Shown in pieces: positions 11,647 through 60,320 of a DNA stretch of 64,000 nt. The stretch lies in assembly GCF_000420325.1 (NCBI RefSeq), contig NZ_ATUS01000001.1, forward strand, positions 186,001 through 250,000, given 5' to 3'. Source of the DNA: Spongiibacter tropicus DSM 19543 (GTDB taxonomy: Bacteria > Pseudomonadota > Gammaproteobacteria > Pseudomonadales > Spongiibacteraceae). The notes beneath the pieces are model-generated. The model saw only the letters and a program-made list of their open reading frames with translations. It did not search any database and was not told the origin of the DNA. The position numbers and the translations under genes were made by a program. Every line of letters starts with the position of its first letter. Within the stretch, counting starts at the first letter, position 1.

Positions 11647-11670
11647 AAAATTGCACTTAAGTGATATCTT
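11647..11670 (-). promoter_or_regulatory. Candidate block-wide operator, site 9
   Basis: 24-bp match to the recurring element: conserved A1A2, A14 and TGCA at positions 16-19, right half TGCAATTTT identical to the site at 34815. It lies upstream of the enoyl-CoA hydratase start on its coding strand. Weaker left half than the other sites. Confidence 0.4.
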
Positions 11671-11697
11671 GACCCAAAATTAATTCAAATGGATAAT
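11669..11697 (+). promoter_or_regulatory. Sigma70-type promoter for methylsuccinyl-CoA dehydrogenase gene
   Basis: TTGACC (11669-11674), 17-bp spacer, GATAAT (11692-11697). The spacer and -10 box lie inside the operator dyad at 11682-11708, the same layout as the promoter at 53469. Confidence 0.65.
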
Positions 11698-11708
11698 GCA
11701 CTTGAATT
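11682..11708. promoter_or_regulatory. Candidate block-wide operator, site 7 (27-bp dyad)
   Basis: AATTCAA, 13 bases including GGATAATGCA, then TTGAATT: a perfect 7-bp inverted repeat. Site 8 at 53482 has AATTCAT and ATGAATT, so the two changes compensate and keep the dyad, as expected of a real protein-binding site. A weaker related segment starts at 11725, 43 bp downstream; the equivalent second element at 53524 is 42 bp downstream of site 8. Confidence 0.7.
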
Positions 11709-11828
11709 CAAAAAAAATCAAACGAATATTGCCCTGAAGAATACTTTTAAACGTAAGGCCAGGGCAACAAAACCCGGTCATCCGGCCACGGCCGATGCCG
11801 TCCGCTCACTCGCAAAGGTTAAAACGCT

Positions 11829-13532
11829 ATGACTGCAAGCAACACCGCTGCCCCGGCAAGCCAAACCGCCATTAACAGCGACCTCGCCTCCGCAAAACAC
11901 TGCCTGGAGCAAGCCCAAAGCGCCGTAAACAAAGCGCTTGGCAGCATAAAATCGCTGTGTAGCACAAGCGGCGAATTTGATAATGCGATCATGGATGACT
12001 ACCAGCTGGCCAGCTATGACCTGGCGTTCTGCACCGCGGAGCTGAGTGCTGCAGATATCATGCTGAACTACGCCAGCGAAGCCGGCGAACAGGATTCTCT
12101 GGCCCCCGAGACCAGCCTCGCCTTCATTGCCGAAGCACTCCACTCCGTGTATTCGCGCCTGATCTCACGCGCGGCAGAACTCAAGCTGAGCCGCAAAGAT
12201 CTGCTGCAAGCTTTCGGCGAGGACTCACTCAACCAACTACTGGAACGCTATTTGAACGGTTCTGCCGTGGCCGCGCTGGGTGAAGCGATTATGCAGCGCA
12301 GCCATGCACGCCTGCCCTCGCTGCTGGACGAAGAGAAGGAAATGGTGAGAGAGGCCTTCTCCCGCTTTGGCGATGATGTGGTTGCCCCACTGGCAGAAGA
12401 GATTCATCGTAAAGACTTGGACATTCCCGACAGCATCCTCAAACCTGCCGCCGAACTCGGCTGCTTTGGCACGTCTATCCCCGAGCGTTTTGGCGGCTTG
12501 ATGCCTGACGATCGCACCGACAGTCTGGGAATGATTGTGGTCACAGAGGAACTGTCACGCGCGTCACTCGGCGCCGCAGGCAGCTTGATCACTCGCCCGG
12601 AAATCGCGGCAAAAGCCCTGCTCAGCGGCGGCACCGATGCCCAGCAACAACACTGGCTGCCACGGCTGGCCAGCGGCGAGACCCTGTGCGCGATCTCTAT
12701 CACCGAACCTAACTTCGGCTCGGATGTGGCCTCGATCTCACTCAAAGCCACCCCGACCGACGGCGGCTGGCTGCTTAACGGCAGCAAGACCTGGTGTACC
12801 TTCGCCGGCAAAGCCAACCTGCTGCTCACCCTGGCTCGCAGCAACCCGGATCCCAAGCTGGGCCACAAAGGCCTCAGCCTGTTTCTGGTAGAAAAACCCT
12901 CAGACACCGGCCACGAATTCAGCCACCAGCAAGCAAATGGCGGCAAGCTTTCCGGCAAAGCCATCAGCACCATTGGCTACCGCGGCATGCATTCTTTCGA
13001 CCTGTTTTTTGAAGACTACTTCGTCCCCGCTGACAATCTGATTGGCGGAAAAGACGGCGAAGGCAAGGCGTTCTACTACACCATGGCTGGATTTTCCGGC
13101 GGCCGAATTCAAACTGCCGCCCGTGCAACCGGCGTTATGCAAGCGGCCTTCGAGCGCGCGCTGAGCTATGCAGGTGAGCGCAAAGTCTTCGGCAAAGCTA
13201 TCGGCGAGTACCAGCTAACACGCGTCAAACTGGGCAGAATGCTGGCCACGCTTACGGCATCTCGGCAGTTCAGCTATCAGGTGGCACGCATGATGGACGA
13301 TGGCAAAGGACAGATGGAAGCCAGCCTGGTGAAACTCTTCAGTTGCCGCGCTGCAGAATGGGTGGCACGGGAAGCCATGCAGATTCACGGCGGCATGGGC
13401 TACGCCGAAGAGTCAGCGGTCAGCCGCTATTTTATCGATGCACGTGTGCTGTCAATTTTTGAAGGCGCCGAGGAAACCCTGGCATTGAAAGTGATTGCGA
13501 AGGATTTGGTAAAACGCGCTCAGCCATGCTGA
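11829..13532 (+). CDS. mcd: (2S)-methylsuccinyl-CoA dehydrogenase-like acyl-CoA dehydrogenase
   Basis: A 567-residue acyl-CoA dehydrogenase, about 180 residues longer than the standard family. The extra N-terminal helical domain (about 1-160, with DDYQLASYDLAFCTAEL) and the C-terminal DARVLSIFEGAEETLALKVI match what I know of methylsuccinyl-CoA dehydrogenase from the ethylmalonyl-CoA pathway. Core motifs: ITEPNFGSDVAS for FAD/substrate, KTWCTFAGKA, RKVFGKAIGEYQ; catalytic base Glu545 in the IFEG motif. Expected reaction: methylsuccinyl-CoA to mesaconyl-C1-CoA. The rest of the ethylmalonyl-CoA pathway (Ccr, Ecm) is absent, whereas the enzymes consuming mesaconyl-CoA are at 38343-41302. Stands alone, flanked by an operator-promoter and a terminator. 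Confidence 0.8.
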   Translation: MTASNTAAPASQTAINSDLASAKHCLEQAQSAVNKALGSIKSLCSTSGEFDNAIMDDYQLASYDLAFCTAELSAADIMLNYASEAGEQDSLAPETSLAFIAEALHSVYSRLISRAAELKLSRKDLLQAFGEDSLNQLLERYLNGSAVAALGEAIMQRSHARLPSLLDEEKEMVREAFSRFGDDVVAPLAEEIHRKDLDIPDSILKPAAELGCFGTSIPERFGGLMPDDRTDSLGMIVVTEELSRASLGAAGSLITRPEIAAKALLSGGTDAQQQHWLPRLASGETLCAISITEPNFGSDVASISLKATPTDGGWLLNGSKTWCTFAGKANLLLTLARSNPDPKLGHKGLSLFLVEKPSDTGHEFSHQQANGGKLSGKAISTIGYRGMHSFDLFFEDYFVPADNLIGGKDGEGKAFYYTMAGFSGGRIQTAARATGVMQAAFERALSYAGERKVFGKAIGEYQLTRVKLGRMLATLTASRQFSYQVARMMDDGKGQMEASLVKLFSCRAAEWVAREAMQIHGGMGYAEESAVSRYFIDARVLSIFEGAEETLALKVIAKDLVKRAQPC

Positions 13533-13547
13533 GCTGACAGTTGGGAC

Positions 13548-13589
13548 ACTGCACTGGGTAAGGCATCACCGACCCAGTGCAGTCTTTTT
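13548..13589 (+). terminator. Terminator after mcd-like gene
   Basis: Perfect 12-bp stem ACTGCACTGGGT / ACCCAGTGCAGT with a 12-base loop followed by CTTTTT on the plus strand. It ends just before the convergent thiolase stop at 13591. Confidence 0.85.
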
Positions 13590-13590
13590 A

Positions 13591-14760
13591 TTACAGACGC
13601 TCGATGATCGTGGCATTCGCCATGCCGCCTGCCTCACACATAGTTTGCAAACCATAGCGCAAGCCGCGATCTTTCAACGCATATATCAGCGTCGTCATTA
13701 AACGGGCACCACTGGCTCCCAGTGGATGCCCTACCGCAATCGCCCCACCGTTCACGTTCAACTTTTCGGGATCAGCGTCCATACCCTGCAGCCAGGCCAG
13801 AGGAACCGGCGCAAACGCTTCGTTCACCTCATACAGATCGATATCACTGATCGAGAGACCGGCCTTTTTCAGGGCCATTTGCGATGCGGGAATCGGCGCT
13901 TCCAGCATAATGACCGGGTCGTGCCCCAATACCGACATCTGATGAACTCGCGCCAGCGGCTGAACACCCAAACGCTTCAGGCCGTTTTCATTCACGACCA
14001 ACAGCGCAGACGCACCATCGCAAATCTGACTGGCATTGGCCGCACTGATACGACCACCCTCTTGCAGCAGTTTGACACCGCCAATGCTTTCCAGCGTGGA
14101 ATTGGCACGAATGCCCTCGTCGCTGACATGCTGAACCACACTGCCATCTTCCAGCGTAACTTCCAGAGGGAGAATCTGCTCCGTGAACGCCCCGGCCTCG
14201 GTGGCCGCCGCAGCCAACTGGTGACTGCGCAGCGCGAAGCGATCCAGCGTCTCACGGTCAAAGCCGTATTTTTCCGCCAGCATTTCCGCGCCGACAAACT
14301 GACTGAAGGGCTTGGGATACCGGGCGTTTAAGCCTGGACTGCGGTAAGTGCCGAAGCCGTGCTTTTCCGCCAGTGTCCAGGGCAGCCCCATGGGCACACG
14401 AGTCATGCTTTCCACACCCGCAGCCACCACGACATCCTGAATACCACTCATTACCGACGCCGCCGCAAAATGCAATGACTGCTGCGAAGAACCACATTGA
14501 CGATCCACCGTGGTGCCGGGAACACTCTCCGGCAGCCCAGCCGCCAGCGCCGCCATACGGCCAATGTTAGCGCCCTGTTCGCCACCCGGGCAGGCACAGC
14601 CCATAATGACATCCTCAACCAGCGATGGATCGGCATCCACTTTATCCAACATGCCTTTCACCACCGCGCCGGCGAGATCTACCGGGTGCCAGCCCGCGAG
14701 TCGTCCTCCACGGCGACCGCCGGCGCTGCGCGCGGCAGCAACAATATACGCTTGCGACAT
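13591..14760 (-). CDS. Acetyl-CoA acetyltransferase / 3-ketoacyl-CoA thiolase
   Basis: A 389-residue thiolase with all catalytic elements: nucleophile Cys89 in DRQCGSSQQS, the GGAIAVGHPLGASGAR histidine loop and the C-terminal CEAGGMANA cysteine. Expected to release acetyl- or propionyl-CoA from a 3-oxoacyl-CoA. The sequence class resembles degradative thiolases of the FadA5/FadA6 type (inference). Transcribed alone from the divergent region 14761-15044. Confidence 0.92.
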   Translation of the reverse strand: MSQAYIVAAARSAGGRRGGRLAGWHPVDLAGAVVKGMLDKVDADPSLVEDVIMGCACPGGEQGANIGRMAALAAGLPESVPGTTVDRQCGSSQQSLHFAAASVMSGIQDVVVAAGVESMTRVPMGLPWTLAEKHGFGTYRSPGLNARYPKPFSQFVGAEMLAEKYGFDRETLDRFALRSHQLAAAATEAGAFTEQILPLEVTLEDGSVVQHVSDEGIRANSTLESIGGVKLLQEGGRISAANASQICDGASALLVVNENGLKRLGVQPLARVHQMSVLGHDPVIMLEAPIPASQMALKKAGLSISDIDLYEVNEAFAPVPLAWLQGMDADPEKLNVNGGAIAVGHPLGASGARLMTTLIYALKDRGLRYGLQTMCEAGGMANATIIERL

Positions 14761-14825
14761 CTGCTTTTCCTTTTCCTGTTACAGCTTGGGATTGACGCAC
14801 TCAAGAGAAGAGTGCCAGTATTACG

Positions 14826-14849
14826 AATATTAACCTGTAGTGCAGAATC
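14826..14849. promoter_or_regulatory. Candidate block-wide operator, site 2
   Basis: AATATTAACCT at the left, GTGCAGAATC at the right; matches the element at 60297 and 34815 column by column without gaps. It overlaps the -10 box of the minus-strand thiolase promoter and lies just upstream of the plus-strand promoter. Confidence 0.6.
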
Positions 14850-14872
14850 CCATTGCCAAAGATTCTTGTCAA
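14844..14872 (-). promoter_or_regulatory. Promoter for thiolase gene
   Basis: Minus strand TTGACA (14872-14867), 17-bp spacer, GATTCT (14849-14844). The -35 is perfect and the -10 is weak. It overlaps operator site 2. Confidence 0.5.
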
Positions 14873-14881
14873 GCGTATTAT
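14853..14881 (+). promoter_or_regulatory. Promoter for LLM-ACAD-CoA-transferase operon
   Basis: TTGCCA (14853-14858), 17-bp spacer, TATTAT (14876-14881). It is face to face with the thiolase promoter, leaving a 5' leader of about 155 bases. Confidence 0.6.
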
Positions 14882-15044
14882 CCTTTTGGATGAAAGTGGC
14901 TAAGGGGCCGAAATACGCCACGTTCAGCGCGATCAGGCAAGACAGAGAACCGGCGTCGCATACACGCAGGCCCAAAGATTTGGATGAACACGTAACACCA
15001 CCACCTAACGAATAATTTTTAACGATTAAACAGTAGGAATAACG

Positions 15045-15947
15045 ATGATCTCCGACGTAAAACTGGGCATCAGCCTGTACAAATTCCCCAACTTCGGGCC
15101 GGAAATTGAACCCCTTGTTGAGTACGTGAAGCTGGCCGAGGATATGGGCTTTGAACACGTTCGTCTTCTCGATCATGTCGTCGGCATTGTGGCCGAGCGC
15201 CACGGCGGCATCGCACAAACCCCTTACACGGATAAAAGCATCATCCGCGAATGTTTTACGCTGATGGCTTACCTGTCAGCCGTTACCGACAAAATCCGCT
15301 TTATGACAGCGGTACTCGGCCTGCCCCAGCGCCAGACAGTTCTGGTCGCCAAACAGGCTGCCGAAGTCGACATTCTGTCTAAAGGTCGCCTGACCATGGG
15401 CGTCGCCGTGGGCTACAACCCGCTGGAGTTCGCCGCCATGGGCGAAGATTTTAAAACCCGCGGCAAGCGCTTCGAAGAACAGATCGACGTGATGCGCCGC
15501 CTGTGGATCGACCGCGATGTGAGCTACAAAGGTGAATGGCACGAGTTCCAGGACGTGAGCCTGTCGCCCCGCCCCATTCAACGCCCGATTCCCCTGTACT
15601 TCGGTATGGGCCGCAAAATTGCGCCGATTCCGCCCGATGTCGTTCTGCGTCGCGTTGGCCGCCTGGCGGATGGCTGGCTGCCCATCTTCGGTCCTGACGC
15701 CGAAGGTCAGAAAGCCGTGGACACCGTCTTTGCGGCAGCACGTGAAGCGGGTCGAGATCCCTCTGAGCTGACCATGTGCATGAGCATCGATGTGCCCGAT
15801 CCGAAAGATCCCTCGTTCATCGACGATATCAAACGCCGCCGCGACTTTGGCGCCTCTCAGATCACTCTCAACCTGCTCGGCACCTCAGCCAGCGAACAGA
15901 TTGAAAACCTCAGACAGGTTAATGAAACCCTGAACAAACACGGATGA
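15045..15947 (+). CDS. LLM-class flavin/F420-dependent oxidoreductase
   Basis: A 300-residue luciferase-like TIM-barrel protein. The visible pattern (VKLAEDMGFEHVRLLDHVVG, the LSKGRLTMGVAVGYNP segment, RGKRFEEQIDVMRRLW, RRVGRLADGWLP) is that of the actinobacterial F420-dependent LLM group. It could use F420H2 or FMNH2; the sequence cannot decide. An F420:NADP reductase-like gene lies in the same block at 54277 and a flavin reductase at 10102. AGGAA precedes the ATG. First gene of a three-gene operon with 7-base gaps. Confidence 0.85.
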   Translation: MISDVKLGISLYKFPNFGPEIEPLVEYVKLAEDMGFEHVRLLDHVVGIVAERHGGIAQTPYTDKSIIRECFTLMAYLSAVTDKIRFMTAVLGLPQRQTVLVAKQAAEVDILSKGRLTMGVAVGYNPLEFAAMGEDFKTRGKRFEEQIDVMRRLWIDRDVSYKGEWHEFQDVSLSPRPIQRPIPLYFGMGRKIAPIPPDVVLRRVGRLADGWLPIFGPDAEGQKAVDTVFAAAREAGRDPSELTMCMSIDVPDPKDPSFIDDIKRRRDFGASQITLNLLGTSASEQIENLRQVNETLNKHG

Positions 15948-15954
15948 ATGCGCT

Positions 15955-17112: not shown

Positions 17113-17119
17113 GCCGCGC

Positions 17120-18274: not shown

Positions 18275-18292
18275 ATGTCAAAATCAAAAAAT

Positions 18293-18334
18293 GCGTGAGG
18301 GCCGCCCTCCCGAGAGAGCGGCAATCCCTTACGC
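18293..18334. terminator. Possible terminator between convergent genes
   Basis: Imperfect hairpin GCGTGAGGG / CCCTTACGC with an inner CCGC/GCGG stem, overlapping the molybdenum hydroxylase stop. There is no good T tract, so the call is weak. Confidence 0.3.
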
Positions 18335-20518: not shown

Positions 20519-20533
20519 AGCGTATTCTCCCCG

Positions 20534-20995: not shown

Positions 20996-21046
20996 AACGG
21001 CCTCGCCTTATCGTTGCGTGATCGGTACAGGGCATAACTCACGCAT

Positions 21047-23901: not shown

Positions 23902-24684
23902 TCAGCGCGGCGCCATGCGAATTGCGCCGTCCAAACGTACGTCTTCGCCATTGAAGTAGCTGTTGGTCACCATGCAGACAGCGAGCTGCGCGAATTCCTG
24001 CGGCGCGCCAAAGCGCTTGGGAAACGGCACGCCCTGCGCCAGGCTTTCTTTGACATTGTCTGGCGCACGACTCATCAGCGGCGTATCGAAAATGCCGGGC
24101 AGTATGGTGTTAACGCGAATACCGTCGTTCATCAGGTCGCGAGCGACCGGCAGCGTCAAACTGACCACGCCACCTTTAGACGCGGCATACGCCGCCTGAC
24201 CGATCTGGCCGTCTTCAGCCGCCGCACTGGAGGTATTGATGATCACGCCGCGCTCGCCATCTTCCATCGGCTCCAGATCGAGCATGCCCTGTGCAGCATT
24301 GGCGATACAGCGGAAGGTGCCCACCAGGTTGATCTGGATAATGCTGTTGAACAGATCCATCGGGAATCGCTTGGTTTCACCGGTGTTGCGATCGCGGCTC
24401 GCGGTTTTCACGGATTTACCGGTACCCGCACAGTTAACCAGAATGCGCTCCTGACCGTGGGCCGCGCGCGCTTTCTCAAACCCTGCAACGACATCGTCAT
24501 CAGAGGTGACATTCACCTGACAGAACACTCCGCCAATTTCGGCAGCGACCTGTTCGCCGCGCTCGGCATTCATATCGAACAGCGCGACCTTCACGCCCTC
24601 CGCACTCAATGCGCGGGCCACTGCCTCACCCAACCCTGAGGCACCACCTGTGACCACTGCAGCCACTGAACTATCAAGCTTCAT
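23902..24684 (-). CDS. SDR dehydrogenase, 3-hydroxy-2-methylacyl-CoA dehydrogenase (HSD10)-like
   Basis: A 260-residue classical SDR: cofactor motif TGGASGLG (12-19), NAG-like VNCAGTGK, catalytic Ser152, Tyr166 and Lys170 (AAYAASKGG). The pattern INLVGTFRCI...TLPVARDLMNDGIRVNTILPGIFDTPL is that of the HSD17B10 / 3-hydroxy-2-methylbutyryl-CoA dehydrogenase group. Start ATG 24684 follows GGGGAGAG; upstream codons to 24783 have no homology. First gene of the operon. Confidence 0.88.
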   Translation of the reverse strand: MKLDSSVAAVVTGGASGLGEAVARALSAEGVKVALFDMNAERGEQVAAEIGGVFCQVNVTSDDDVVAGFEKARAAHGQERILVNCAGTGKSVKTASRDRNTGETKRFPMDLFNSIIQINLVGTFRCIANAAQGMLDLEPMEDGERGVIINTSSAAAEDGQIGQAAYAASKGGVVSLTLPVARDLMNDGIRVNTILPGIFDTPLMSRAPDNVKESLAQGVPFPKRFGAPQEFAQLAVCMVTNSYFNGEDVRLDGAIRMAPR

Positions 24685-24826: not shown

Positions 24827-24850
24827 AATTTTACATATAAGTGCAAATTT
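24827..24850. promoter_or_regulatory. Candidate block-wide operator, site 5
   Basis: AATTTTACAT at the left and AAGTGCAAATTT at the right, preceded by ACG as in sites 1, 2 and 4. It is midway between two divergent operons, upstream of a TTGACG/TAATTT promoter. Confidence 0.6.
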
Positions 24851-24854
24851 GTTC

Positions 24855-27704: not shown

Positions 27705-27770
27705 GACATTCCATCGCGCCGTTTGGCTCTGCCGCGGCGCGACGACATACCGATAACAGGAGATAACACC

Positions 27771-30140
27771 ATGCAAGGCCCACTGGAAGGACTCACCGTC
27801 CTGGAAATTTCCAATGTCATGCCCGGCAGCATCGCCGGTGTCTTGCTGGCCGACCACGGCGCCAACGTCATCAAGATTGAGCCCCATGGCGGCAACCACT
27901 TTGCTCACGAACTGGTGCGCAAAGGCTGGGACCGTAACAAGAAAAGCATTGAGCTGGATCTGCACAAGCCCGAGGAACTGGAGAAAATTAAGGCGCTGGC
28001 CGCCTCGGCAGATGTGCTGATCCACTCGCTGGAAGCCCCCGAAGCCGCCGCGCTTGGTCTGAACGCTGAAAGCCTGTCAGCCGGCAACCCGGAACTGATT
28101 GTTTGCGGACTCACCGCCTACGGCCAGGACACCCCTTTCAAAGACCGCCCCTACGGCGAATCGCTGGTCGCTGCCCGCCTCGGCGGCATGCTGGAAAAAG
28201 GCAGTCCCTACCGCGACGGTCCGCTGTATATGGGCCACCCAGCCCTGCATTACGGCCAGGCCTTTCTCGCGGTTATCGACATTCTCGCCGCACTGCGTGC
28301 CCGTCATGAATCCGGCATCGGCCAGGACGTGGAAGCTTCATTGTTTGATTCCTTCCTCGCCCAGTCGCCGATGAACTGGTGGTGGCACCCGGAAGGCATT
28401 TCCTATATCAAGCGTCCCGCCAAAGCCAGTAAAACCGGCACGCCCTTCGGCCACACCCGTCTGGTCACCACCAAGTTCCAGTGTGCCGACGGCGAATACC
28501 TGCAAATGCACACCGGCGGTGTAGGCTCGTTCAAGCGCGCCATGGATATTCTCGGCTTCGGTGATCGCGTTCAAGCCATTGACGGTCCGGAAATGGCCGT
28601 GCCGCTCAGTGACGATGAGTATCAGATTGCCCGCGTGGAAATCTACGACGCCTTTAAGAAAAAGCCCCGCGCCGAATGGCTGAAGCTGTTCCACGAGGCC
28701 GATATTGCTTCGCTGCCCGTGCTGCGCCCGGCCGAAGTCCTGCTTGATGAGCAGGTGGAATTCCTCGAACAGCGCGTCGAAATTCCCGATGAAGACTTCG
28801 GCACGATCCATCAGGCGGGTCCGGCTATTCGCTTCCGCCGCGCCGGTGGTGCCAGCATCAAACCGGCCCCCAAAGTCGGTCAGCACAACGCCGAGCTTGA
28901 CGCGCTGCTGCAACAGCCAGGCAAACCCTCCAGTAACAGCAAGGGCAAGCCGCTCAGCCACGCCCTGGAAGGCATTCGCATTCTCGACCTCAGCTCCTTC
29001 TTCGCCTGTGGCTATGCTGGCAAGCTGATGTCAGACATGGGCGCCGATGTAATCAAGATCGAAACGCCATCCGGCGACCAGATGCGTCCGCTGCCCGACC
29101 CGTTTGAAGGCTGTCAGCGTGGCAAGCGCGATATCGTCGTCAACCTGAAAACCGCAGAAGGTCTGGAAATCGTCAGAAAACTGGTCGCCACCGCCGACGT
29201 GGTGATGCACAACATGCGTCCCGGCAAAGCCGACAAACTCGGCATTGGCTACGAGGCCCTGACCGAAATCAAACCCGATTTGATCTACGCCTACCTGCCC
29301 GGCTACGGCTCCACCGGCCCCAAGTCCAAACTGAAAAGCTTCGCCCCGCTGATCAGCGGCTTCTGCGGCCTGCTGTACGAAGGCGCTGGCGAGGGGAACG
29401 ATCCGATCCCCAGCGTTTACGGCAACGAGGACTACAACAACGGTTTCCTTGGCGCGGTCGGCGTCCTGATGGCCCTGCAAAACCGTGCGAAGACCGGCAA
29501 AGGCGATTATCTGGAATGCCCACAGGTACATTCCAGCCTGTTCACCACCTCTGAGCACTTCCTGAATGCCAACCGCGAGACCGTCTACGGCCTGCGCATG
29601 GACAAGGACCAGATGGGCTTCAACGCGCTCGATCGCCTCTACCAGACCGCTGACGACCGCTGGATCTGTATTGCCAGCACCTCTGACGCGCACTTTGCCG
29701 GGCTGTGCAAAGGTATTGGTCAGGCCGAACTGGCCCACGATCCGCGCTTTGCCACCGCCAAGGCCCGTTCACAGAACGACGCCCAACTGCTGGACATTCT
29801 GCAACCCTACTTCGCCGCCCATAGCGCAGAGGACGCCTTCCAGGCGCTGGACGCCGCCGGAGCCGCGATTGAAATCGCAGCGGACGACCACTGGCTGCCC
29901 GACTTCCTCGAAAAAGCCGAGTGGGCAGAAACCCATGGTCACGTGTTTGATCAGCCCACGTCGATGTATGGCCATATTCGCGAAGTCGGCATTGTGAACC
30001 GCCTGTCGAAAACCCCGGCAGTCCGCAAAGGTCCTGCCCCGCAATTCGGCGGCCACACTCGCGAGATACTGGCTGAGCTGGGCTACAGCAGCGAGCAGAT
30101 CGACAGCCTGATTTCCGGCAAGCAAGTGCTGTCGGTGTAA
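27771..30140 (+). CDS. Fused double CaiB/BaiF CoA-transferase with one apparently inactive half
   Basis: A 789-residue protein made of two complete type III CoA-transferase domains: about 1-385 (GPLEGLTVLEISNVMPGSIAG) and about 400-789 (LEGIRILDLSSFFACGYAGK). Active members are interlocked homodimers of about 400 residues. In the second half the nucleophile aspartate is present (Asp554 in NEDYNNGFLG). In the first half the aligned stretch is GHPALHYG (155-162) and has no aspartate. It therefore looks like a covalent heterodimer with one catalytic site. ATG 27771 after AGGAG is preferred over 27723. Confidence 0.88.
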   Translation: MQGPLEGLTVLEISNVMPGSIAGVLLADHGANVIKIEPHGGNHFAHELVRKGWDRNKKSIELDLHKPEELEKIKALAASADVLIHSLEAPEAAALGLNAESLSAGNPELIVCGLTAYGQDTPFKDRPYGESLVAARLGGMLEKGSPYRDGPLYMGHPALHYGQAFLAVIDILAALRARHESGIGQDVEASLFDSFLAQSPMNWWWHPEGISYIKRPAKASKTGTPFGHTRLVTTKFQCADGEYLQMHTGGVGSFKRAMDILGFGDRVQAIDGPEMAVPLSDDEYQIARVEIYDAFKKKPRAEWLKLFHEADIASLPVLRPAEVLLDEQVEFLEQRVEIPDEDFGTIHQAGPAIRFRRAGGASIKPAPKVGQHNAELDALLQQPGKPSSNSKGKPLSHALEGIRILDLSSFFACGYAGKLMSDMGADVIKIETPSGDQMRPLPDPFEGCQRGKRDIVVNLKTAEGLEIVRKLVATADVVMHNMRPGKADKLGIGYEALTEIKPDLIYAYLPGYGSTGPKSKLKSFAPLISGFCGLLYEGAGEGNDPIPSVYGNEDYNNGFLGAVGVLMALQNRAKTGKGDYLECPQVHSSLFTTSEHFLNANRETVYGLRMDKDQMGFNALDRLYQTADDRWICIASTSDAHFAGLCKGIGQAELAHDPRFATAKARSQNDAQLLDILQPYFAAHSAEDAFQALDAAGAAIEIAADDHWLPDFLEKAEWAETHGHVFDQPTSMYGHIREVGIVNRLSKTPAVRKGPAPQFGGHTREILAELGYSSEQIDSLISGKQVLSV

Positions 30141-47187: not shown

Positions 47188-47211
47188 AATTTTACATGAT
47201 ATTGCAGTTTT
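47188..47211. promoter_or_regulatory. Candidate block-wide operator, site 6
   Basis: AATTTTACAT at the left (identical to site 5) and ATATTGCAGTTTT at the right. It overlaps the promoter of the PQQ dehydrogenase gene. A further TAATGCA-rich stretch lies at 47167-47185. Confidence 0.6.
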
Positions 47212-50365: not shown

Positions 50366-51580
50366 CTACTGGTTGTACTCGTCGATTTTCATCTTGCCGA
50401 GCTGCGCCATGTGCACTTCGTCCGGACCATCGGCCAAACGCAGGAAACGGTTGGTGGTAAACACCTGAGCTATCGGCGTGTCATCGCTGATCCCCATCGC
50501 CCCGTGGGCCTGAATCGCGCGATCGGCAACCGTCTGTGCCATTTGCGGCGCGACGACTTTGATAGCGGCGATCAGGTCTTTAGCAACCTTGTTACCGTAG
50601 CGATCCATGGCGTCGGCGGCTTTCAGCGTCAGCAGACGCGCCTGCTCGATTTCACAGAACGATTTGGCAACATCCTGACGAATACTGCTTTGCTGGGACA
50701 GCTTGCGGCCGAAAGGCGAACGTGACTCTACCCGCTTGGCCATAATTTCCAGCGTACGCTGAGCCTGACCGATAGAACGCATGCAGTGGTGAATACGACC
50801 GGGGCCGAGACGGCCCTGCGCAATTTCAAAGCCACGGCCCTCACCCAAGATCATATTTGACTTGGGCACACGCACATTATTGAAACGCATTTCGACGTGG
50901 CCGCCCGGCGAGTGGAAGGTGCCAAACACTTTCAATGGCCGTATGATTTCGACTCCGGGAGTGTCACGGGGCACAATGATGATGGAGTGCTGCTTGTGGC
51001 GCGGGTTATCCAATAGGGTTTTGCCCATCACCAGCAGCAGATTGCAATCGGGGTGCATCGCGCCGGAGATCCACCACTTGCGACCGTTGATCACGTAATC
51101 GTCACCATCTGGCAAAATCGTGGTTTCAATATTGGTGGCATCGGAAGAGGCAACCTGCGGCTCGGTCATCACATAAGCGGAGCGGATTTTTCCATCCAGC
51201 AGTGGGCGCAGCCACTGCTCCTGCTGCTCGGGGCTGCCGTACTTGGCCAGCACTTCCATGTTGCCGCTGTCGGGTGCGTTGCAGTTGAAAATTTCCGAAC
51301 TGAAGGACACGCGGCCCATAATCTCAGCCAGCGGAGCGTATTCAAGGTTGGTCAGCCCGGGGCTGAACTCACCGTATTCCTCAGGCAGAAACAGATTCCA
51401 CAGGCCCGCTTCGCGTGCCTTGGCTTTCAGATTTTCCATTCCCGGCCAGGGCTTCCACAGATTGGCTTCGCTGTGCATCCAGTCACCGCGCTCTTTCTCG
51501 GTGGGATACACATACTCATCCATAAAGGCGTTCAGCCTGGCGATCAGCTCTTGGACTTTTTCACTGTATTCAAAATTCAT
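50366..51580 (-). CDS. Acyl-CoA dehydrogenase of the ACAD10/ACAD11 type
   Basis: A 404-residue dehydrogenase with hallmarks of ACAD10/11: LEYAPLAEIMGRVSFSSEIFNCNAPDSGNMEVL, MTEPQVASSDATNI, RKWWISGAMHPDC, RIHHCMRSIGQAQRTLE, and ADGPDEVHMAQLG at the end. This group acts on 4-phosphoryl-acyl-CoA made by an aminoglycoside-phosphotransferase-like kinase; that kinase is encoded two genes upstream at 52375. GGAGAG precedes the ATG. Confidence 0.92.
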   Translation of the reverse strand: MNFEYSEKVQELIARLNAFMDEYVYPTEKERGDWMHSEANLWKPWPGMENLKAKAREAGLWNLFLPEEYGEFSPGLTNLEYAPLAEIMGRVSFSSEIFNCNAPDSGNMEVLAKYGSPEQQEQWLRPLLDGKIRSAYVMTEPQVASSDATNIETTILPDGDDYVINGRKWWISGAMHPDCNLLLVMGKTLLDNPRHKQHSIIIVPRDTPGVEIIRPLKVFGTFHSPGGHVEMRFNNVRVPKSNMILGEGRGFEIAQGRLGPGRIHHCMRSIGQAQRTLEIMAKRVESRSPFGRKLSQQSSIRQDVAKSFCEIEQARLLTLKAADAMDRYGNKVAKDLIAAIKVVAPQMAQTVADRAIQAHGAMGISDDTPIAQVFTTNRFLRLADGPDEVHMAQLGKMKIDEYNQ

Positions 51581-51601
51581 TGCACTCTCCTGTAGTGCCC
51601 C

Positions 51602-52345
51602 TTAAAGGGACAGCCCACCATCAACAAGAATTGTCTGACCGCAGACATACGCTGCCAGCGGAGACGCCAGGAACAGGGCGACGCCTGCCATGTCGTCGGG
51701 CGTACCGAAACGCCCCGTCGGAATTTTTGCCAGCGCGGCTTCGCGGCGCTTGGGGTGATCGGTGGTCACCGCTGTCAGCTTGGTTTCGACGAGACCCGGC
51801 GCGAGACCGTTAACGCGAATACCTTTGCTGGCCCATGCCTGACCCAATGTACGGGTCAGATTGATAGCCCCTGCCTTTGACGCCGCATAGGCAGGATTTC
51901 CCTTATTGGCGCGATAACCCGACAGTGAACTGACGATCGTAATGGAACCCGCAGACGCTTCCAGCGCCGCGCGAAAACGGCGTGAGCAATGCATCAGGCT
52001 GTCGAGGTTAACGGCCATCACGCGATCCCAGCCTTCCTGTTCAAACTCGCGGCGCTGATACTCCACGGTGCCCTGACAGAGAATCAACACATCCATACGA
52101 CCTTCAGCAAAAGGCTCAGGCGCGCTGGCAATTGCTTCGGGATCGCCCACATTTACACAGCTGTAGCCAACGCCGCTGAGGTCGGAGCCACTGACTCCAT
52201 CATAATCTGCGGCAGTTTTGCGGGTGCCCCACACGTGAACATCTGCGCCACGCTGGCGAAACGCCTGGGCAATACCGTTGCCGATGCCGCTTGAACCGCC
52301 GACAACCAGCACAGCTTTGCCAGTAAAATCTGTATCATCATGCAT
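51602..52345 (-). CDS. SDR-family oxidoreductase
   Basis: A 247-residue classical SDR: VGGSSGIGNGIA cofactor motif, catalytic Tyr and Lys in PAYAASKAGAINL, ILVDGGLSL C-terminus. Located between the kinase and the ACAD11-like dehydrogenase, matching the position of LvaD-type SDRs. Start ATG 52345 rather than 52387, where the homologous sequence begins. Confidence 0.9.
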   Translation of the reverse strand: MHDDTDFTGKAVLVVGGSSGIGNGIAQAFRQRGADVHVWGTRKTAADYDGVSGSDLSGVGYSCVNVGDPEAIASAPEPFAEGRMDVLILCQGTVEYQRREFEQEGWDRVMAVNLDSLMHCSRRFRAALEASAGSITIVSSLSGYRANKGNPAYAASKAGAINLTRTLGQAWASKGIRVNGLAPGLVETKLTAVTTDHPKRREAALAKIPTGRFGTPDDMAGVALFLASPLAAYVCGQTILVDGGLSL

Positions 52346-52374
52346 TGATCTGCTGCCTTCTTTTATTACTTGTC

Positions 52375-53415
52375 TTAACGAATCCAACGCAGCGCACGCT
52401 CAAACAGGCGTACCGCCTTTCCGTGCAATGCGTCGCCAGTTTCTTTGGGAGCACGTCCTGCGCAGGCTCGCGCGTGAGTCCCCTCCAGCAAAATACCGAG
52501 CTTGTAGCAGGCCAGTACGCCATACCACTCAATGTGCGACAGATCCCGCTCGGAGCGAGCACGGTAGTGCTCCACCAGCTCTTGCGCAGAGGGGAAGCCC
52601 TTCCAGGGGGTAACGGTCGTTGCTTGCTGACCGCCCTCGTCGTCGGGCCAGGTTGCCAACAGCCAGCCGAGATCCAGCAGCGGGTCACCAATCGTGGCCA
52701 ACTCCCAGTCAACAATCGCGGCCAACTCCGCACTGTCTTTGCGATACATCACATTGGCTAAATGGTAGTCGCCATGGAGAATACCGGGCGTGAATTCCGT
52801 CGGCCGATTCGCGTCCAGCCATTCGGCGACACGCGCCACACCCGGCAGGCTCTCGGCGCCGGGCCAACCCGCGCAATCGCTGTAACTTTCCAGTTGTCGC
52901 TGCCAGCGAGATACCTGACGCTCCAGATAATTATCAGGACGCCCAAAGCCCTCAAGCCCTACCGCGCGATAGTCCACTGCGCCCAGCGCGGCGATACCTT
53001 CGACCAGCGCCAAGCCCATACGGTGGCGAATTGCCTCCGACCCGGCGTGCAGCGGCGGCAAGCCGGTCACCGGATTAAAGCCATCGACGGGCTCCATCAG
53101 ATAAAAGGCCGCTCCCAATACATCTTCGTCAGGGCAGCCGGCAATCAGGCGGGCATGAGGCACATTCGTGGTCGCCAGTGCCCCCAGTACTCGCGCTTCG
53201 CGGCGCATGGTTTCGTTCGACCCTGCACGCAAATGTGCGGGCGGGCGACGCAAGACAAAGCTGCGACCGTCACGCTCAAAGCGCAGAAGAATATTTTGAG
53301 TGCCTCCAGCCAGATCCTGCACATTTTCAAGGGGCCCCTGCCCCAATTGCTGCTCATCCATCCACGCCTGCAGACGCTTAAGATCCACCAGTTCAGCTGT
53401 TGTTACGGAGTTCAA
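52375..53415 (-). CDS. APH-like kinase, 4-hydroxyacyl-CoA kinase (LvaA/ACAD10-11 kinase) type
   Basis: A 346-residue aminoglycoside-phosphotransferase-fold protein: GGTQNILLRFERDGRSFVLRRPP near the N-terminus, catalytic loop HGDYHLANVMYR and metal loop IVDWELATIGDPLLDLGW. In the levulinate pathway and in ACAD10/11 this kinase phosphorylates the 4-hydroxyl of an acyl-CoA. The start is TTG at 53415 after a strong AAGGAG; no ATG fits. First gene of the operon, divergent from the TetR gene. Confidence 0.88.
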   Translation of the reverse strand: MNSVTTAELVDLKRLQAWMDEQQLGQGPLENVQDLAGGTQNILLRFERDGRSFVLRRPPAHLRAGSNETMRREARVLGALATTNVPHARLIAGCPDEDVLGAAFYLMEPVDGFNPVTGLPPLHAGSEAIRHRMGLALVEGIAALGAVDYRAVGLEGFGRPDNYLERQVSRWQRQLESYSDCAGWPGAESLPGVARVAEWLDANRPTEFTPGILHGDYHLANVMYRKDSAELAAIVDWELATIGDPLLDLGWLLATWPDDEGGQQATTVTPWKGFPSAQELVEHYRARSERDLSHIEWYGVLACYKLGILLEGTHARACAGRAPKETGDALHGKAVRLFERALRWIR

Positions 53416-53468
53416 AGCAAATGGCTCCTTCGCTGCGTCTTCGCTTTTTTAATTATTGGAAGACTGAC

Positions 53469-53497
53469 TTGCATTAAAATTAATTCATTTGGATAAT
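53469..53497 (+). promoter_or_regulatory. Promoter of the TetR gene at 53537
   Basis: TTGCAT (53469-53474), 17-bp spacer, GATAAT (53492-53497). Expected transcription start near 53504, which excludes the upstream TTG (53489) as the TetR start codon. Confidence 0.65.
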
Positions 53498-53508
53498 GCA
53501 CATGAATT
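53482..53508. promoter_or_regulatory. Candidate block-wide operator, site 8 (27-bp dyad)
   Basis: AATTCAT, 13 bases including GGATAATGCA, then ATGAATT: a perfect 7-bp inverted repeat. It is nearly identical to site 7 (11682), with paired compensating substitutions. It overlaps the -10 box of the TetR promoter and faces the kinase operon. Confidence 0.7.
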
Positions 53509-53523
53509 TACAAAAAATCAACG

Positions 53524-53547
53524 AATTTTAACCCCTATGGCAAGATT
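53524..53547. promoter_or_regulatory. Candidate block-wide operator, site 4
   Basis: AATTTTAACCCC at the left and GGCAAGATT at the right, preceded by CAACG as in site 1. It overlaps the TetR start codon, so part of the resemblance could be chance. Confidence 0.4.
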
Positions 53548-54256
53548 AGTTAGCAAGTCAGAAAGCGGCCCGATAGCCCAACTAAAGCAGACAGCGTGCA
53601 GATTGTTTGCAGAAAGAGGCGTGGACGGCGTCACTGTCCGCGAGATAGCAATGGCAGCCGGGCAAAAAAACCACAGCGCGGTGGGCTACCACTTCGGCTC
53701 AAAGGAAGGCCTGGTTAAAGCGCTTATCCTCGATGGCGCTGTTGCCATCGACAAACGCCGCAACGCCATGATTGATGACATCGAAGCGCGAGGCGGCCCG
53801 GAAAATATCCGGGAGGTTGTGCAGGCACTAATTTATCCATCCGTCAGCCTCGACAAAGACAGTCTCGCGACAGATCACTATGTCCGCTTCGTCACCATGC
53901 TCAGCATGACGCATCGCGAACTGTTTATGGACACACTGGAAAATCGCTGGAATTCCGGCTACCTGCGCTGCCTGGAACACCTGCGCAAACTCATGCCGGA
54001 GATGTCCCCCGCGTCAAAAAATCAGCGTTTTGTTTTCATGGGAGGCCTGCTTGGCAGCGTGCTGGCGATGCGCGAGCGGGCGCTGGCCGATACCGAACGC
54101 CCCCACCCGACCTGGCGGTCTGAGCACACCCTGCAACACCTGGCGTTGACCATGGCCGCCATGCTCGAAGCACCCGCAGATCCAAGCGATGCCGCTGACG
54201 GCATCGAAGACGATAAAAAACCTTTCAGCGCCCCAATGCTCGGCTTTGTCGAGTAG
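53537..54256 (+). CDS. TetR-family regulator, candidate repressor of the block
   Basis: A 239-residue TetR protein. The N-terminal helix-turn-helix runs from about residue 15 to 62 (LKQTACRLFAERGVDGVTVREIA ... SAVGYHFGSKEGLVKALI); the rest is a ligand-binding helical domain. ATG 53537 is chosen because the promoter's start point lies downstream of the alternative TTG. Two operator-like sites are at its own promoter, the usual autoregulated arrangement, and it is divergent from the kinase operon. The ligand is probably an acyl-CoA pathway intermediate (inference). Confidence 0.88.
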   Translation: MARLVSKSESGPIAQLKQTACRLFAERGVDGVTVREIAMAAGQKNHSAVGYHFGSKEGLVKALILDGAVAIDKRRNAMIDDIEARGGPENIREVVQALIYPSVSLDKDSLATDHYVRFVTMLSMTHRELFMDTLENRWNSGYLRCLEHLRKLMPEMSPASKNQRFVFMGGLLGSVLAMRERALADTERPHPTWRSEHTLQHLALTMAAMLEAPADPSDAADGIEDDKKPFSAPMLGFVE

Positions 54257-54276
54257 GGCTTAATCAGGATAACAAG

Positions 54277-54945
54277 ATGAACAATCAGAAAACTCTCGCC
54301 GTTCTCGGCGGCACTGGCAATGAAGGCAAAGGACTGGCACTGCGCTGGGCTAACGCAGGCTACAAGGTCATTCTCGGCAGCCGATCCGCCGAAAAAGCAG
54401 CCGAAGTTGCCGAAGAAATGAACGCCATTCTTGGCAGCTCGAACGTCAGTGGCTGCGGTAATGTGCAGGCTGCGGAACAGGCAGACATTGCCGTGCTCAC
54501 CGTCCCCTATTCCGCCCAACGCGCCGTCGTTGAAGAAGTACAACATGCTCTCAGCGGCAAGATCCTGGTGGATGTTACGGTTCCCCTAAAACCGCCGCGC
54601 GTCTTTCAGGTGCAACTGCCGGATAACGGCTCCGCGGTTCAGGCGGTGCAGACCTTCCTCGGCGATGGCGTGAAAGTGGTTTCGGCCTTTCAGAACATTT
54701 CTGCCCACCATTTAACCGATCTCGACTACCAGTTCGACTGTGAGGTACTGGTGTGCGGAGACGATGCAGAAGCCTGCGAAACGGTCATCCAAATGTCCGA
54801 AGCCATTGGCTTGCACGCATGGCATGCAGGGGTTCTGGCAAACTCGGTTGTGGCAGAGGCATTGACCTCGGTACTGATAGCAATCAACAAACGCTACAAG
54901 ACCCCCAGCGCAGGTATTCGCATCACTGGCGTTAACGCCGCCTGA
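54277..54945 (+). CDS. F420H2:NADP oxidoreductase-like (NpdG/FNO family) protein
   Basis: A 222-residue Rossmann protein of the NADPH-dependent F420 reductase family: LAVLGGTGNEGKGLALRWANAGYKVILGSRS at the N-terminus, then ADIAVLTVPYSA. True FNO enzymes move hydride between NADPH and coenzyme F420. F420 is uncommon in Gammaproteobacteria, so either the cell makes F420 or this is a relative with another cofactor. Follows the TetR gene by 20 bases in the same direction. Confidence 0.82.
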   Translation: MNNQKTLAVLGGTGNEGKGLALRWANAGYKVILGSRSAEKAAEVAEEMNAILGSSNVSGCGNVQAAEQADIAVLTVPYSAQRAVVEEVQHALSGKILVDVTVPLKPPRVFQVQLPDNGSAVQAVQTFLGDGVKVVSAFQNISAHHLTDLDYQFDCEVLVCGDDAEACETVIQMSEAIGLHAWHAGVLANSVVAEALTSVLIAINKRYKTPSAGIRITGVNAA

Positions 54946-54972
54946 CACCAAAAGCTGTCGCTCTTCTCTCTT

Positions 54973-55001
54973 ACCGCTTGCTGAGTTCATCAGCAGGCGG
55001 T
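54973..55001 (+). terminator. Probable terminator after the TetR-FNO operon
   Basis: 12-bp stem ACCGCTTGCTGA / TCAGCAGGCGGT with one wobble pair and a 5-base loop, followed by a weak T-rich tract. The remaining intergenic stretch to 55231 holds a perfect TATAAT at 55042-55047 without a convincing -35. Confidence 0.55.
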
Positions 55002-55231
55002 GCTTGCTATTTCTTTGTCAAAGCTCAAAACTCCATGGTAGTATAATTTTCATATTTGGGAGTTATAGCGACTTCCCGCTTAGGAAAAAACCATAAGGCT
55101 ATGAGCACAAAACTATCTGAGCAGGCCGTAAAAAGGCGGCAAAATATCGCGCCCGCCGCAGATAAGCTGCGCTGTCAGATAACAATAGCCAAGCAAAAAA
55201 AAGATAATCACGCTGCAGGGAACAGCCTCTA

Positions 55232-55921
55232 ATGCCAAAAAAAGCTCCACAACGCCCCGCCAATTACCAAAGCCCGGCCATTCGTGAGCGCCGACGCCGA
55301 ATACTCAACGAAGCCCGCTTGATGATATCTGAGAAAGGTATCAATGATTTCAGCATGGATGAGCTTGGAGTGCGTGCAGGCGTCGCCAAGCGTACGCTCT
55401 ACAATGCGTTCAACAGCAAAGAACTTATTATCTCTACTGCCATTCAGCAGTATTTCGATACCTTCATCGAGAAGATCCCCTACTCCACCCCGCCGGGAAG
55501 CTTACCGCGCATCGTTGAGCGCCTGGCCTGGATCGTGCGTCGAAACAAAGAGATCCCCAACTACATTAAGGCGCTGATGGCGATCTACTTCAGCCCCGAT
55601 ATCGAGGATGATATTTGGGAGTCCATCCACATGCTGGGTGTGCGCTTTAATATGGAGTGGATCAAAAAGCTGACCAGCAAGCGTCAGCTGCAACCCTGGA
55701 TTGATCCGGAGCAGATGGCTCACGATATCATTCGCATCGAATACGGCGTTATCAGCGACTGGTGTCAGGGGCGAATTGACGACGACGACTTCCTTCCCCA
55801 TATTCTTCTCTGCTACCTAAACTATGTGGTTGGCGCCACCAAAGGCAGAGCCCGCAAAGAAGTCGAAGATATGCTCAAGCTGCTGCAAACTGGCGAGCTG
55901 CTGGAAGCGTACAACAGCTAA
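55232..55921 (+). CDS. TetR/AcrR-family regulator
   Basis: A 229-residue TetR protein with helix-turn-helix at about 20-65 (RRILNEARLMISEKGINDFSMDELGVRAGVAKRTLYNAFNSKE). Alone in its unit, ending at a strong terminator. It may control the neighbouring exported protein and TonB receptor genes, or an effector-specific branch. AGGGA lies 11 bases before the ATG. Confidence 0.9.
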   Translation: MPKKAPQRPANYQSPAIRERRRRILNEARLMISEKGINDFSMDELGVRAGVAKRTLYNAFNSKELIISTAIQQYFDTFIEKIPYSTPPGSLPRIVERLAWIVRRNKEIPNYIKALMAIYFSPDIEDDIWESIHMLGVRFNMEWIKKLTSKRQLQPWIDPEQMAHDIIRIEYGVISDWCQGRIDDDDFLPHILLCYLNYVVGATKGRARKEVEDMLKLLQTGELLEAYNS

Positions 55922-55954
55922 GAACTACGAAGTTGTAAATAAGAAGTCGTAAAA

Positions 55955-55975
55955 AAGGGGCTTTCGCAGCCCCTT
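55955..55975. terminator. Terminator between TetR and the exported propeller protein
   Basis: 8-bp stem AAGGGGCT / AGCCCCTT with loop TTCGC and an A-rich left flank. It serves both convergent genes. Confidence 0.8.
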
Positions 55976-55983
55976 CCCCTGCA

Positions 55984-57054
55984 CTATTTCACTTGCGCAG
56001 GCTGATAGGGAAAGCGCGCGATTCTGTGACCGAGAATTGAACTCACCCAGATTTCCTCGCCCACCTGAAGCGCCGTTGTGGCCAGTCCCAAATCATTTCC
56101 GGCATCGACACGCCACTTCTGAACAATCTTCATCGATGCGGGGTCAACCTCCACAACCGTCAACACCGAAGGACACTCACCCTTCCCCTTGACGCATTCC
56201 AGCAGGCCATTGGGCGTTGTGTGCTGACCGGTTGCCAGTACGGTGCCCGCGGATGTCCAGCGCAGGTTATCCGGCATAAAGCTCAGTGCCAGCGACTTAT
56301 CCGGCCGCTTCTCTCCGGTGCTCGCGCAGGGCAGCGATTGTCTCACCAATTCACTGCCGGACCACGCCGCAACCACAGCGAAGCATCCGTCATCCGATAC
56401 CACCAGCCCATTCGGTCCCGACATGGGTTTAACCGGCGCCGCCTGCCAGCCATCACGTGGAGACCAATGGAAAAGCCGACCGGTGTCTTCACCATCCACC
56501 CGGCGCTGCCAGGAATCTTTATCGGCCGGATCATAGGTCTGGGTGATATAGATATCGCCAGTGGGCAACAGACTCAAGCTGTTTGCCGATACCTCAGAGG
56601 GAATGGGGATACAGTCCTCCCAGGTCAGGCGAGGCTTGCCCGAACCCCCATCAACACGAAAACGCTCGATCGCCGCCCGCCCGCCGCGGTTGATCACCAG
56701 GAGTATATTGCGATCCCCATCGCGACCGACGGTGATACCCAGCGGCGAAAACGCCTTCTCCTCCAGCGCGGAACAATGACGACGGTCCGCAGCGGCAGCA
56801 ATATCAAAGGAGAGTTTCTCCAGGTGCAGTGGCAATCTGCGCATGGCATAAATGCCGGGCTGCGCGGCCTTACCAATGGAAATACCACTGACAAGAACCC
56901 AGTCGCTACCGGGAATCGTGACCATATCCTCAGCCACGGGCGGTGCCGCCACATTATCCGGTTTTACCAGCGTTTCGGCATGCACACTTAACGCAGTACA
57001 AAGCAACGCTACAGCGGTCGCAATACGGTAAAAAAACAGGGACTTTGCAGGCAT
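55984..57054 (-). CDS. Exported beta-propeller protein, SMP-30/paraoxonase-like, possible lactonase
   Basis: A 356-residue protein with a cleavable signal peptide (ends ...VHA at about 26). Repeated propeller strands and two calcium-site-like motifs, SGPNGLVVSDDG and MPDNLRWTSAG, resemble SMP-30/PON lactonases and arylesterases. Not firmly assigned. It is encoded just downstream of the TonB receptor, so it could open a lactone or ester in the periplasm after uptake (inference). GGAGGT precedes the ATG. Confidence 0.75.
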   Translation of the reverse strand: MPAKSLFFYRIATAVALLCTALSVHAETLVKPDNVAAPPVAEDMVTIPGSDWVLVSGISIGKAAQPGIYAMRRLPLHLEKLSFDIAAAADRRHCSALEEKAFSPLGITVGRDGDRNILLVINRGGRAAIERFRVDGGSGKPRLTWEDCIPIPSEVSANSLSLLPTGDIYITQTYDPADKDSWQRRVDGEDTGRLFHWSPRDGWQAAPVKPMSGPNGLVVSDDGCFAVVAAWSGSELVRQSLPCASTGEKRPDKSLALSFMPDNLRWTSAGTVLATGQHTTPNGLLECVKGKGECPSVLTVVEVDPASMKIVQKWRVDAGNDLGLATTALQVGEEIWVSSILGHRIARFPYQPAQVK

Positions 57055-57098
57055 AAGCTTACCTCCAATCTTTGAATGTTGACTCCAGAACGTGAGTC

Positions 57099-57131
57099 AA
57101 AAAAAAGGCGCCGTAGCAAGCTAACGGCGCC
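57099..57131 (-). terminator. Terminator of the TonB-dependent receptor gene
   Basis: Stem GGCGCCGT / ACGGCGCC with a 9-base loop followed on the minus strand by eight T. Located 28 bases after the receptor stop. Confidence 0.92.
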
Positions 57132-57158
57132 AAGCACAAACCCAACGAGCGGGAAAAC

Positions 57159-60062: not shown

Positions 60063-60109
60063 AGGGATCCTCTTACGCTTAATATTATCTGCTTTATTTC
60101 AGGACCGAG

Positions 60110-60138
60110 ACAATGGACGCGCACACCGCGTCCATTGT
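60110..60138. promoter_or_regulatory. Perfect hairpin/palindrome in the TonB receptor leader
   Basis: 12-bp arms ACAATGGACGCG / CGCGTCCATTGT around CACAC, 48 bases upstream of the receptor ATG and without a T tract. It could be an operator or an mRNA leader structure. Confidence 0.55.
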
Positions 60139-60269
60139 AGCTAACCATCTCTTTCACTCCTGCGCCTCGAAATCACCCTGCCGCCAATTCCCAAGAGAAC
60201 AACACTGTGTCACCCAAGGGCAGCGACCTTTTTCGGAGGCGCGCGGGCACAGACCCACGAAACGAATAG

Positions 60270-60283
60270 TGCAACGCGTTGCA
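60270..60283. promoter_or_regulatory. 14-bp perfect palindrome, LacI-type operator shape
   Basis: TGCAACGCGTTGCA, with the central CG of LacI/GalR-type operators, 13 bases from operator-like site 1. No LacI-type gene is in the window. Confidence 0.45.
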
Positions 60284-60296
60284 AAAAAAAGCAACG

Positions 60297-60320
60297 AATT
60301 TTAACCTGCAAAGCAATATT
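60297..60320. promoter_or_regulatory. Candidate block-wide operator, site 1
   Basis: AATTTTAACCTG at the left and AGCAATATT at the right, preceded by CAACG. It is 235 bases upstream of the receptor ATG, the outermost copy of the element, just inside the right tRNA-Glu. Confidence 0.55.

Follow-up and report, generated by a model that had tools for sequence, protein, structure and literature searches.

We analysed a 64,000-nucleotide stretch of the Spongiibacter tropicus DSM 19543 genome (contig NZ_ATUS01000001.1, positions 186,001 to 250,000 of the forward strand; hereafter the window, in whose coordinates positions are given unless another contig is named), in which a block of catabolic genes carries repeated operator-like elements in its intergenic gaps. 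Pfam scans of 50 window proteins revealed six acyl-CoA dehydrogenases, five type III CoA-transferase genes and three thiolases in this block, and further genes encode a P450, a PQQ alcohol dehydrogenase, LLM, npdG, a TonB receptor and two TetR proteins, the only transcription factors that the scans recognised in the block. Short gene names such as Thio1, ACD1, ECH1, SDR1 and PQQ are labels coined for the present analysis. The nearest solved relatives of the P450 are P450cam/CYP101; the remaining enzymes are generic. The genes on which the argument turns are the following.

About 9 to 60 kb: catabolic block, delimited by the Pfam scans
15045..15947, + strand: LLM, F420-type luciferase-like oxidoreductase (TIGR03619, 221 bits; cut-off 166.9)
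50366..53415, - strand: ACD6-SDR2-APH module of the 4-hydroxyacyl-CoA type, facing TetR1 and conserved next to it
53537..54256, + strand: TetR1, candidate repressor at operator A (TetR_N 3.4e-11, TetR_C_30 1.8e-7 in Pfam; 36 ortholog loci)
54277..54945, + strand: npdG, NADPH:F420 reductase, 3′ of TetR1 (TIGR01915, 211 bits; cut-off 149.8)
55232..55921, + strand: TetR2, candidate repressor at operator B (TetR_N 4.1e-10 in Pfam, no Pfam family matching the C-terminal part; orthologs with flanking B)

Two operators in the gaps of one block

A first-pass annotation had aligned nine sites (11647, 11682, 14826, 24827, 34815, 47188, 53482, 53524 and 60297) as a single operator of one block-centred regulon, with the TetR protein encoded at 53537 as candidate repressor. 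All nine sites are present as written, the one at 11647 on the minus strand, and the conserved columns (A1A2, A14 and GCA17-19 in nine sites, T3 in eight, A7 and T16 in seven) hold when re-read by eye. The two perfect dyads that it described also exist, at 11682 and 53482, which are not the seventh and eighth sites in the listed order. We rejected the single-motif alignment itself, as matrices built from relatives separate the sites, one (A) finding 11682 and 53482 and the other (B) most of the others; the two motifs had been merged because both contain AATT...GCA at equal spacing. The block is a real, conserved catabolic regulon with two operators, which the single operator conflates. The regulon is indeed block-centred, with strong matches almost only in block gaps, and orthologous promoters of relatives do carry conserved elements, which resolve into two motifs.

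Motif A spans 27 bp with the core TCAnnTGGATAATnCnnTTGAC, and motif B is the 24-bp palindrome AATATTGCACTATAGTGCAATATT; both were recovered from other species without the window. Five sites, A at 14866-14892 on the minus strand and B at 11725, 34559, 47164 and 55027, were absent from the earlier list. Scores below come from a relatives-only matrix for A and from a held-out matrix for B, unless stated otherwise.

11682..11708, + strand: operator A, a perfect dyad in front of ACD1 (11829, +) and ECH1 (-); 41.2 bits
14866..14892, - strand: operator A between Thio1 (-) and LLM (+); 32.5 bits; orthologous site in five relatives
53482..53508, + strand: operator A, perfect dyad, between APH (-) and TetR1 (+); 36.4 bits; equivalent place in orthologs
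11725..11748, + strand: operator B, 43 bp past the start of A at 11682; 20.0 bits
14826..14849, - strand: operator B of the composite Thio1 promoter; 26.3 bits; also in relatives' Thio1 promoters
24827..24850, no strand: operator B between SDR1 (-) and ACD3 (+); 28.6 bits
34559..34582, no strand: operator B between MFS1 (-) and ACD4 (+); exact pattern match, 21.7 bits
34815..34838, no strand: operator B before ACD4 (+); 27.1 bits
47164..47187, no strand: operator B before the PQQ dehydrogenase (-), in tandem with 47188; 29.0 bits, the window's best
47188..47211, no strand: operator B before the PQQ dehydrogenase (-); 25.6 bits
53524..53547, no strand: operator B of the composite TetR1 promoter, over the TetR1 start codon; exact pattern match, 17.4 bits
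55027..55050, no strand: candidate operator B before TetR2, weaker; 18.3 bits
60297..60320, no strand: operator B before the TonB-dependent receptor (-); exact pattern match, 24.1 bits
11647..11670, no strand: doubtful weak B-like site before ECH1 (-); 17.8 bits with a looser matrix, not above 15 with the held-out one

Operator A accompanies TetR1 and its putative targets

The 17 other genomes of the genus hold no close TetR1 ortholog (best matches weak). A collection scan, which kept 80 relatives, gave 36 loci (L041-L076, in 35 genomes) that are 51-67% identical over most of TetR1, the next match being at 35%. Judged by title, most of these genomes belong to Alphaproteobacteria; one is a Luteimonas, and for three the class is not stated. 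We found the 27-bp A element before the TetR1 match in 35 of the 36 loci (in a variant form in three), 55 to 133 bp upstream and at -55/-56 in 17 of them; none was found at the TetR1 promoter of L064. The palindromic operator at TetR1's own promoter is conserved together with the protein, and its core is kept in loci spanning 50-69% GC. APH faces TetR1 within 250 bp in 26 of the 36 loci.

Allowing at most one mismatch, the A core occurs at 38 places in 31 of the 35 genomes, 30 of them within 160 bp before TetR1. Five of the other eight lie in the gap between LLM and Thio1 (two Emcibacter, two Niveispirillum and the Luteimonas) and are orthologous to the window site at 14866; Croceicoccus has one between APH and fbiC, with TetR1 at another place on the contig, and two have no assigned target. 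Furthermore, a site with two mismatches precedes APH in one Emcibacter genome. The operator is found at target genes away from TetR1 and therefore tracks its targets, not only the regulator gene.

For the window we used a 33-bp A matrix made from 31 distinct sites at the relatives' TetR1 promoters, leaving out the window and the three variant sites. After the three sites listed above, the next place in the window reaches 4.9 bits, inside SDR1 (the reverse strands of the two dyads score 16.5 and 5.2); the maximum over 20 shuffles is 8.8 bits, and the best place in 420 kb of background from the same genome is 18.4 bits. A matrix from 18 TetR2-lacking loci alone gives the same three window sites (37.6, 34.9 and 28.7 bits). 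The first-pass annotation had named confinement of matches to block gaps as supporting evidence. The sites exceed chance expectation: a dyad pattern derived from 11682 and 53482 matches nowhere else in the 3.95-Mb genome with three or fewer mismatches (control 0). The looser A core occurs in this genome with one mismatch at 11684, 14868 (-) and 24329 (inside SDR1), with two at 53484 and C2:11132, and with three at 12 further places (control 2); the 17 other genomes of the genus have one place at one mismatch.

We also compared the recognition helices of aligned TetR1 orthologs from 16 relatives and the window. The helix reads QKNP instead of QKNH in L058, L062, L064 and L076, three of which have TGTATTAATCA at the operator centre (in L064 no site was found), and a Sulfitobacter pontiacus plasmid ortholog, looked at afterwards, combines QKNP with TGTATTAATCA. 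QKNP accompanies an altered centre in four of the five orthologs that carry it, with the variant at L058, L062, L076 and L267. This small covariation between helix and operator supports TetR1 as the probable binder of A. Neither core was found upstream of two more distant TetR1 homologs (41% and 37%). The S. tropicus genome also encodes a 39%-identical TetR1 paralog at C3:182470-182994; the 20 kb around it hold nothing above 15 bits for B.

Operator B and its association with TetR2

The B sites of the window share AATnTTAACC-N6-GCAAnATT. In the whole genome this pattern has three exact places, all in the window (34559, 53524 and 60297); two mismatches add one place in the window and one outside, and three mismatches add 13, one of them in the window (control total 7). 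Across the 17 other genomes of the genus no match is exact, and one has a single mismatch. The element recurs in the gaps of the relatives' homologous cluster, where it resolves into AATATTGCACTATAGTGCAATATT.

A matrix was built from 51 sites of TetR2-bearing relatives (cut-off 18), with the window and all TetR1 and TetR2 neighbourhoods held out; none of the 51 lies inside a matched gene. A first, looser matrix (cut-off 12) had drifted to A/T-rich sequence and was dropped. The held-out matrix scores 11 window places above 15 bits (47164, 24827, 34815, 14826, 47188, 60297, 34559, 11725, 11692, 55027 and 53524). The match at 11692 lies over A and was taken to be an artefact. Of the other ten, 53524 runs into the TetR1 start and nine lie fully in gaps, although by our gene list gaps account for 7.5% of 9087-60400. 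In 400 kb of background from the same genome two places exceed 15 bits (18.3, in a stretch chosen knowing it, and 17.9) and none exceeds 20. A further 411 kb from the TetR1 loci of TetR2-lacking relatives hold four places above 15 bits and none above 20. The 296 kb of TetR2-bearing loci, training sites included, hold 34 above 20.

TetR2 matches at 1e-20 were found in 16 of the 35 genomes; two are only 37-39% identical, so 14 were counted as TetR2-bearing (43-68%). B is present above 8 bits at the TetR1 promoter in 10 of 14 TetR2-bearing and 0 of 21 TetR2-lacking loci (Fisher 5.5e-6, Mann-Whitney 3.2e-5, relatedness being ignored in both). It lies within 250 bp after 12 of the 14 TetR2 orthologs, and no B above 12 bits lies beside six more distant TetR2 homologs (paralogs). 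Upstream of TetR2, B exceeds 15 bits in five of the 14 orthologs and in the window (18.3). The TetR2 ortholog of Sphingobium faniae (L173, G072:C34:240570-241208) is reported with one in-frame TGA.

Predicted composite promoters

At all three A sites of the window, B starts 42-43 bp after A. The same spacing (42 or 43 bp) is seen at five of five relatives' Thio1 promoters, weakly at L156 where B reaches 12.1 bits, and a spacing of 43-44 bp at the ten scoring TetR1 promoters. Reading the predicted promoters from the sequence, the right half of A would supply the -35 box (TTGACA-N17-GATTCT at 14866, TTGAAT-N17-AATATT at 11682 and ATGAAT-N16-AATTTT at 53482) and B would cover the -10 box and the start.

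A nested two-repressor model and its alternatives

From the conservation, positions and co-occurrence of the motifs and the gene order, we infer a nested regulon in which TetR1 would bind the 27-bp dyad A and TetR2 the 24-bp palindrome B, a model that as a whole we hold to be probable. The first-pass choice of the 53537 protein as repressor survives as the likely candidate for the dyad-type sites, which are only three (11682, 53482 and 14866); for the rest the candidate is the 55232 protein. Under this hypothesis, the three promoters towards ACD1, Thio1 and TetR1 have A over the -35 and, some 43 bp later, B over the -10/start region, so that either repressor would block RNA polymerase and both would have to leave. 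The gaps SDR1|ACD3 and MFS1|ACD4 and those of PQQ, the TonB receptor and, weakly, TetR2 carry B alone. TetR1 is apparently the more ancient of the two: many relatives have it opposite the APH-SDR-ACD module and nothing more, without B, and in TetR2-bearing genomes F420 biosynthesis genes mostly adjoin it and B overlies its promoter. The inducers would likely be intermediates of one substrate. Whether a composite dual-TetR promoter, common to the window genome, Luteimonas and Alphaproteobacteria, lets TetR1/A as a 4-hydroxyacyl-CoA repressor and TetR2/B as a pathway repressor jointly gate the catabolic genes and, in relatives, F420 synthesis is in our view evenly balanced; if it does, cofactor F420 would not be made unless intermediates of one substrate were at hand.

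Several observations weigh against this model. The APH sites of L160 and L162 carry A without B, the constant spacing may be set by the promoter alone rather than by protein contact, and GGATAAT within A could be a -10 box in the window. An A-like place at one mismatch lies within the SDR1 coding sequence (24329, 4.9 bits), and a strong B-like palindrome (27.3 bits, C1:625224) lies outside the window, inside npdG of the genome's own F420 operon. For TetR2, the best candidate for B on co-occurrence, B is missing from the TetR1 promoter in four of the 14 TetR2-bearing loci, and identical Novosphingobium sequences account for five of the ten B-positive promoters, so the association is not phylogenetically independent. 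Seven of the 14 orthologs have no B above 9 bits upstream, and general TetR2 autoregulation is therefore unsupported; the B sites after TetR2 may instead serve the gene that follows.

The intragenic matches at 24329 and C1:625224 were not counted as regulon members. GGATAAT as a -10 box fits the window with TTGACC or TTGCAT at 17-bp spacing, and no matching -35 was seen by eye in the one relative whose spacing was counted (L043); we do not prefer it.

The alternative that fares best accepts two operators and gives B to a regulator other than TetR2, encoded for example outside the block. Such a regulator would suit the absence of B upstream of half of the TetR2 orthologs, and B tracks the whole pathway as well as it tracks TetR2; yet no third transcription factor was recognised in the block and B sites flank TetR2 orthologs, and we consider this reading unlikely. 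It is very improbable that all sites are variants of one operator bound by the 53537 protein. The shared AATT...GCA at equal spacing and the common location in gaps of one block would fit such an operator, but with the A matrix six of the nine sites fall below 0 and 34815 reaches only 2.4 bits, and TetR2-lacking genomes have TetR1 and A, yet the 411 kb scanned from their TetR1 loci are free of B above 20 bits. Least probable of all, A and B might be no more than parts of promoters or A/T-rich upstream DNA to which no regulator binds, as their overlap with sigma70-like boxes and the A/T content of much of B would allow, but strong places are rare in some 400 kb of background and the A core is conserved across the whole GC range of the loci.

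The nested two-repressor model offers two testable operator-regulator pairs for an uncharacterised degradation pathway in several proteobacterial groups. The operators could be used to delimit the pathway and to seek inducers, and the pair would form a natural two-input repression switch.

A link to F420 biosynthesis

In 11 of 14 TetR2-bearing loci, and in 0 of 22 others, an fbiC match starts within 900 bp after TetR1; npdG, cofE, cofD and cofC usually come next where the locus extends that far. In many relatives the genes for F420 biosynthesis therefore sit immediately downstream of a TetR gene with its operator. cofD is present in 12 of 12 TetR2-bearing genomes tested, S. tropicus included (11 above the cut-off), versus 0 of 3 without TetR2. 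In S. tropicus itself npdG, cofE, cofD, cofC and cofGH lie at about 620-626 kb of C1, outside the window, and a second npdG remains behind TetR1. In the searched text of an F420 review (PMC8498797) the word "repressor" is absent.

L043, L044, L051 and L055 are among the loci in which TetR1 and its operator are followed at once by an F420 biosynthesis operon. The complete F420 gene set of S. tropicus is on L265 (G000:C1:612001-632000) at 7953-13613 (-), and the 27.3-bit B-like palindrome lies inside its npdG.

Likely ligands and known systems

LvaR is a sigma54-type activator. In the available text of PMC8714952 the lva promoter is paired with LvaR and with no TetR protein, whereas the window module faces TetR1. 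The genes themselves are alike: APH, ACD6 and SDR2 bring an APH-type kinase, an acyl-CoA dehydrogenase and an SDR together in one operon, a combination like that of the lva operon of Pseudomonas putida and ACAD10/ACAD11 (PMC12440821 and PMC11342911); an activity of the window module on 4-hydroxyacyl-CoA is predicted. Solved relatives of the APH product include ACAD11, whose kinase domain phosphorylates 4-hydroxyacyl-CoAs according to the available text of PMC11342911. By this likeness, a 4-hydroxyacyl-CoA or its acid is the likely ligand of TetR1, and another intermediate may serve TetR2.

EdcR, the TetR repressor of oestradiol degradation in Caenibius tardaugens, also governs a catabolic cluster with divergent operons and has a putative palindromic operator that covers the -10 box and is conserved in part at EdcR's own promoter, as far as the available text of PMC8700777 describes it. 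EdcR is a single regulator there, whereas the window block has two TetR genes; its C-terminal domain is TetR_C_11, not TetR_C_30 as in TetR1, and its palindrome TnnCnnTACnAnTnGTAnnGnnA resembles neither the A nor the B consensus when compared by eye. A keyword search of open papers found no description of operators A or B.

KstR and KstR2 of cholesterol catabolism are two TetR repressors for parts of one pathway, a layout like that of the window; we know of no composite dual-operator promoter for them. TetR2 has a weak N-terminal likeness to the NCBIfam KstR model (37.8 bits, far under the cut-off of 280) and is not assigned to KstR.

Other observations in the block

Between TetR2 and the TonB receptor, an open reading frame of 356 aa (55984-57054, -) has no Pfam match at 0.001 and no match of at least 35% identity among those listed in the relatives' loci. 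Finally, a single chain of 805 aa (27723-30140, +) carries two CoA-transferase III stretches.

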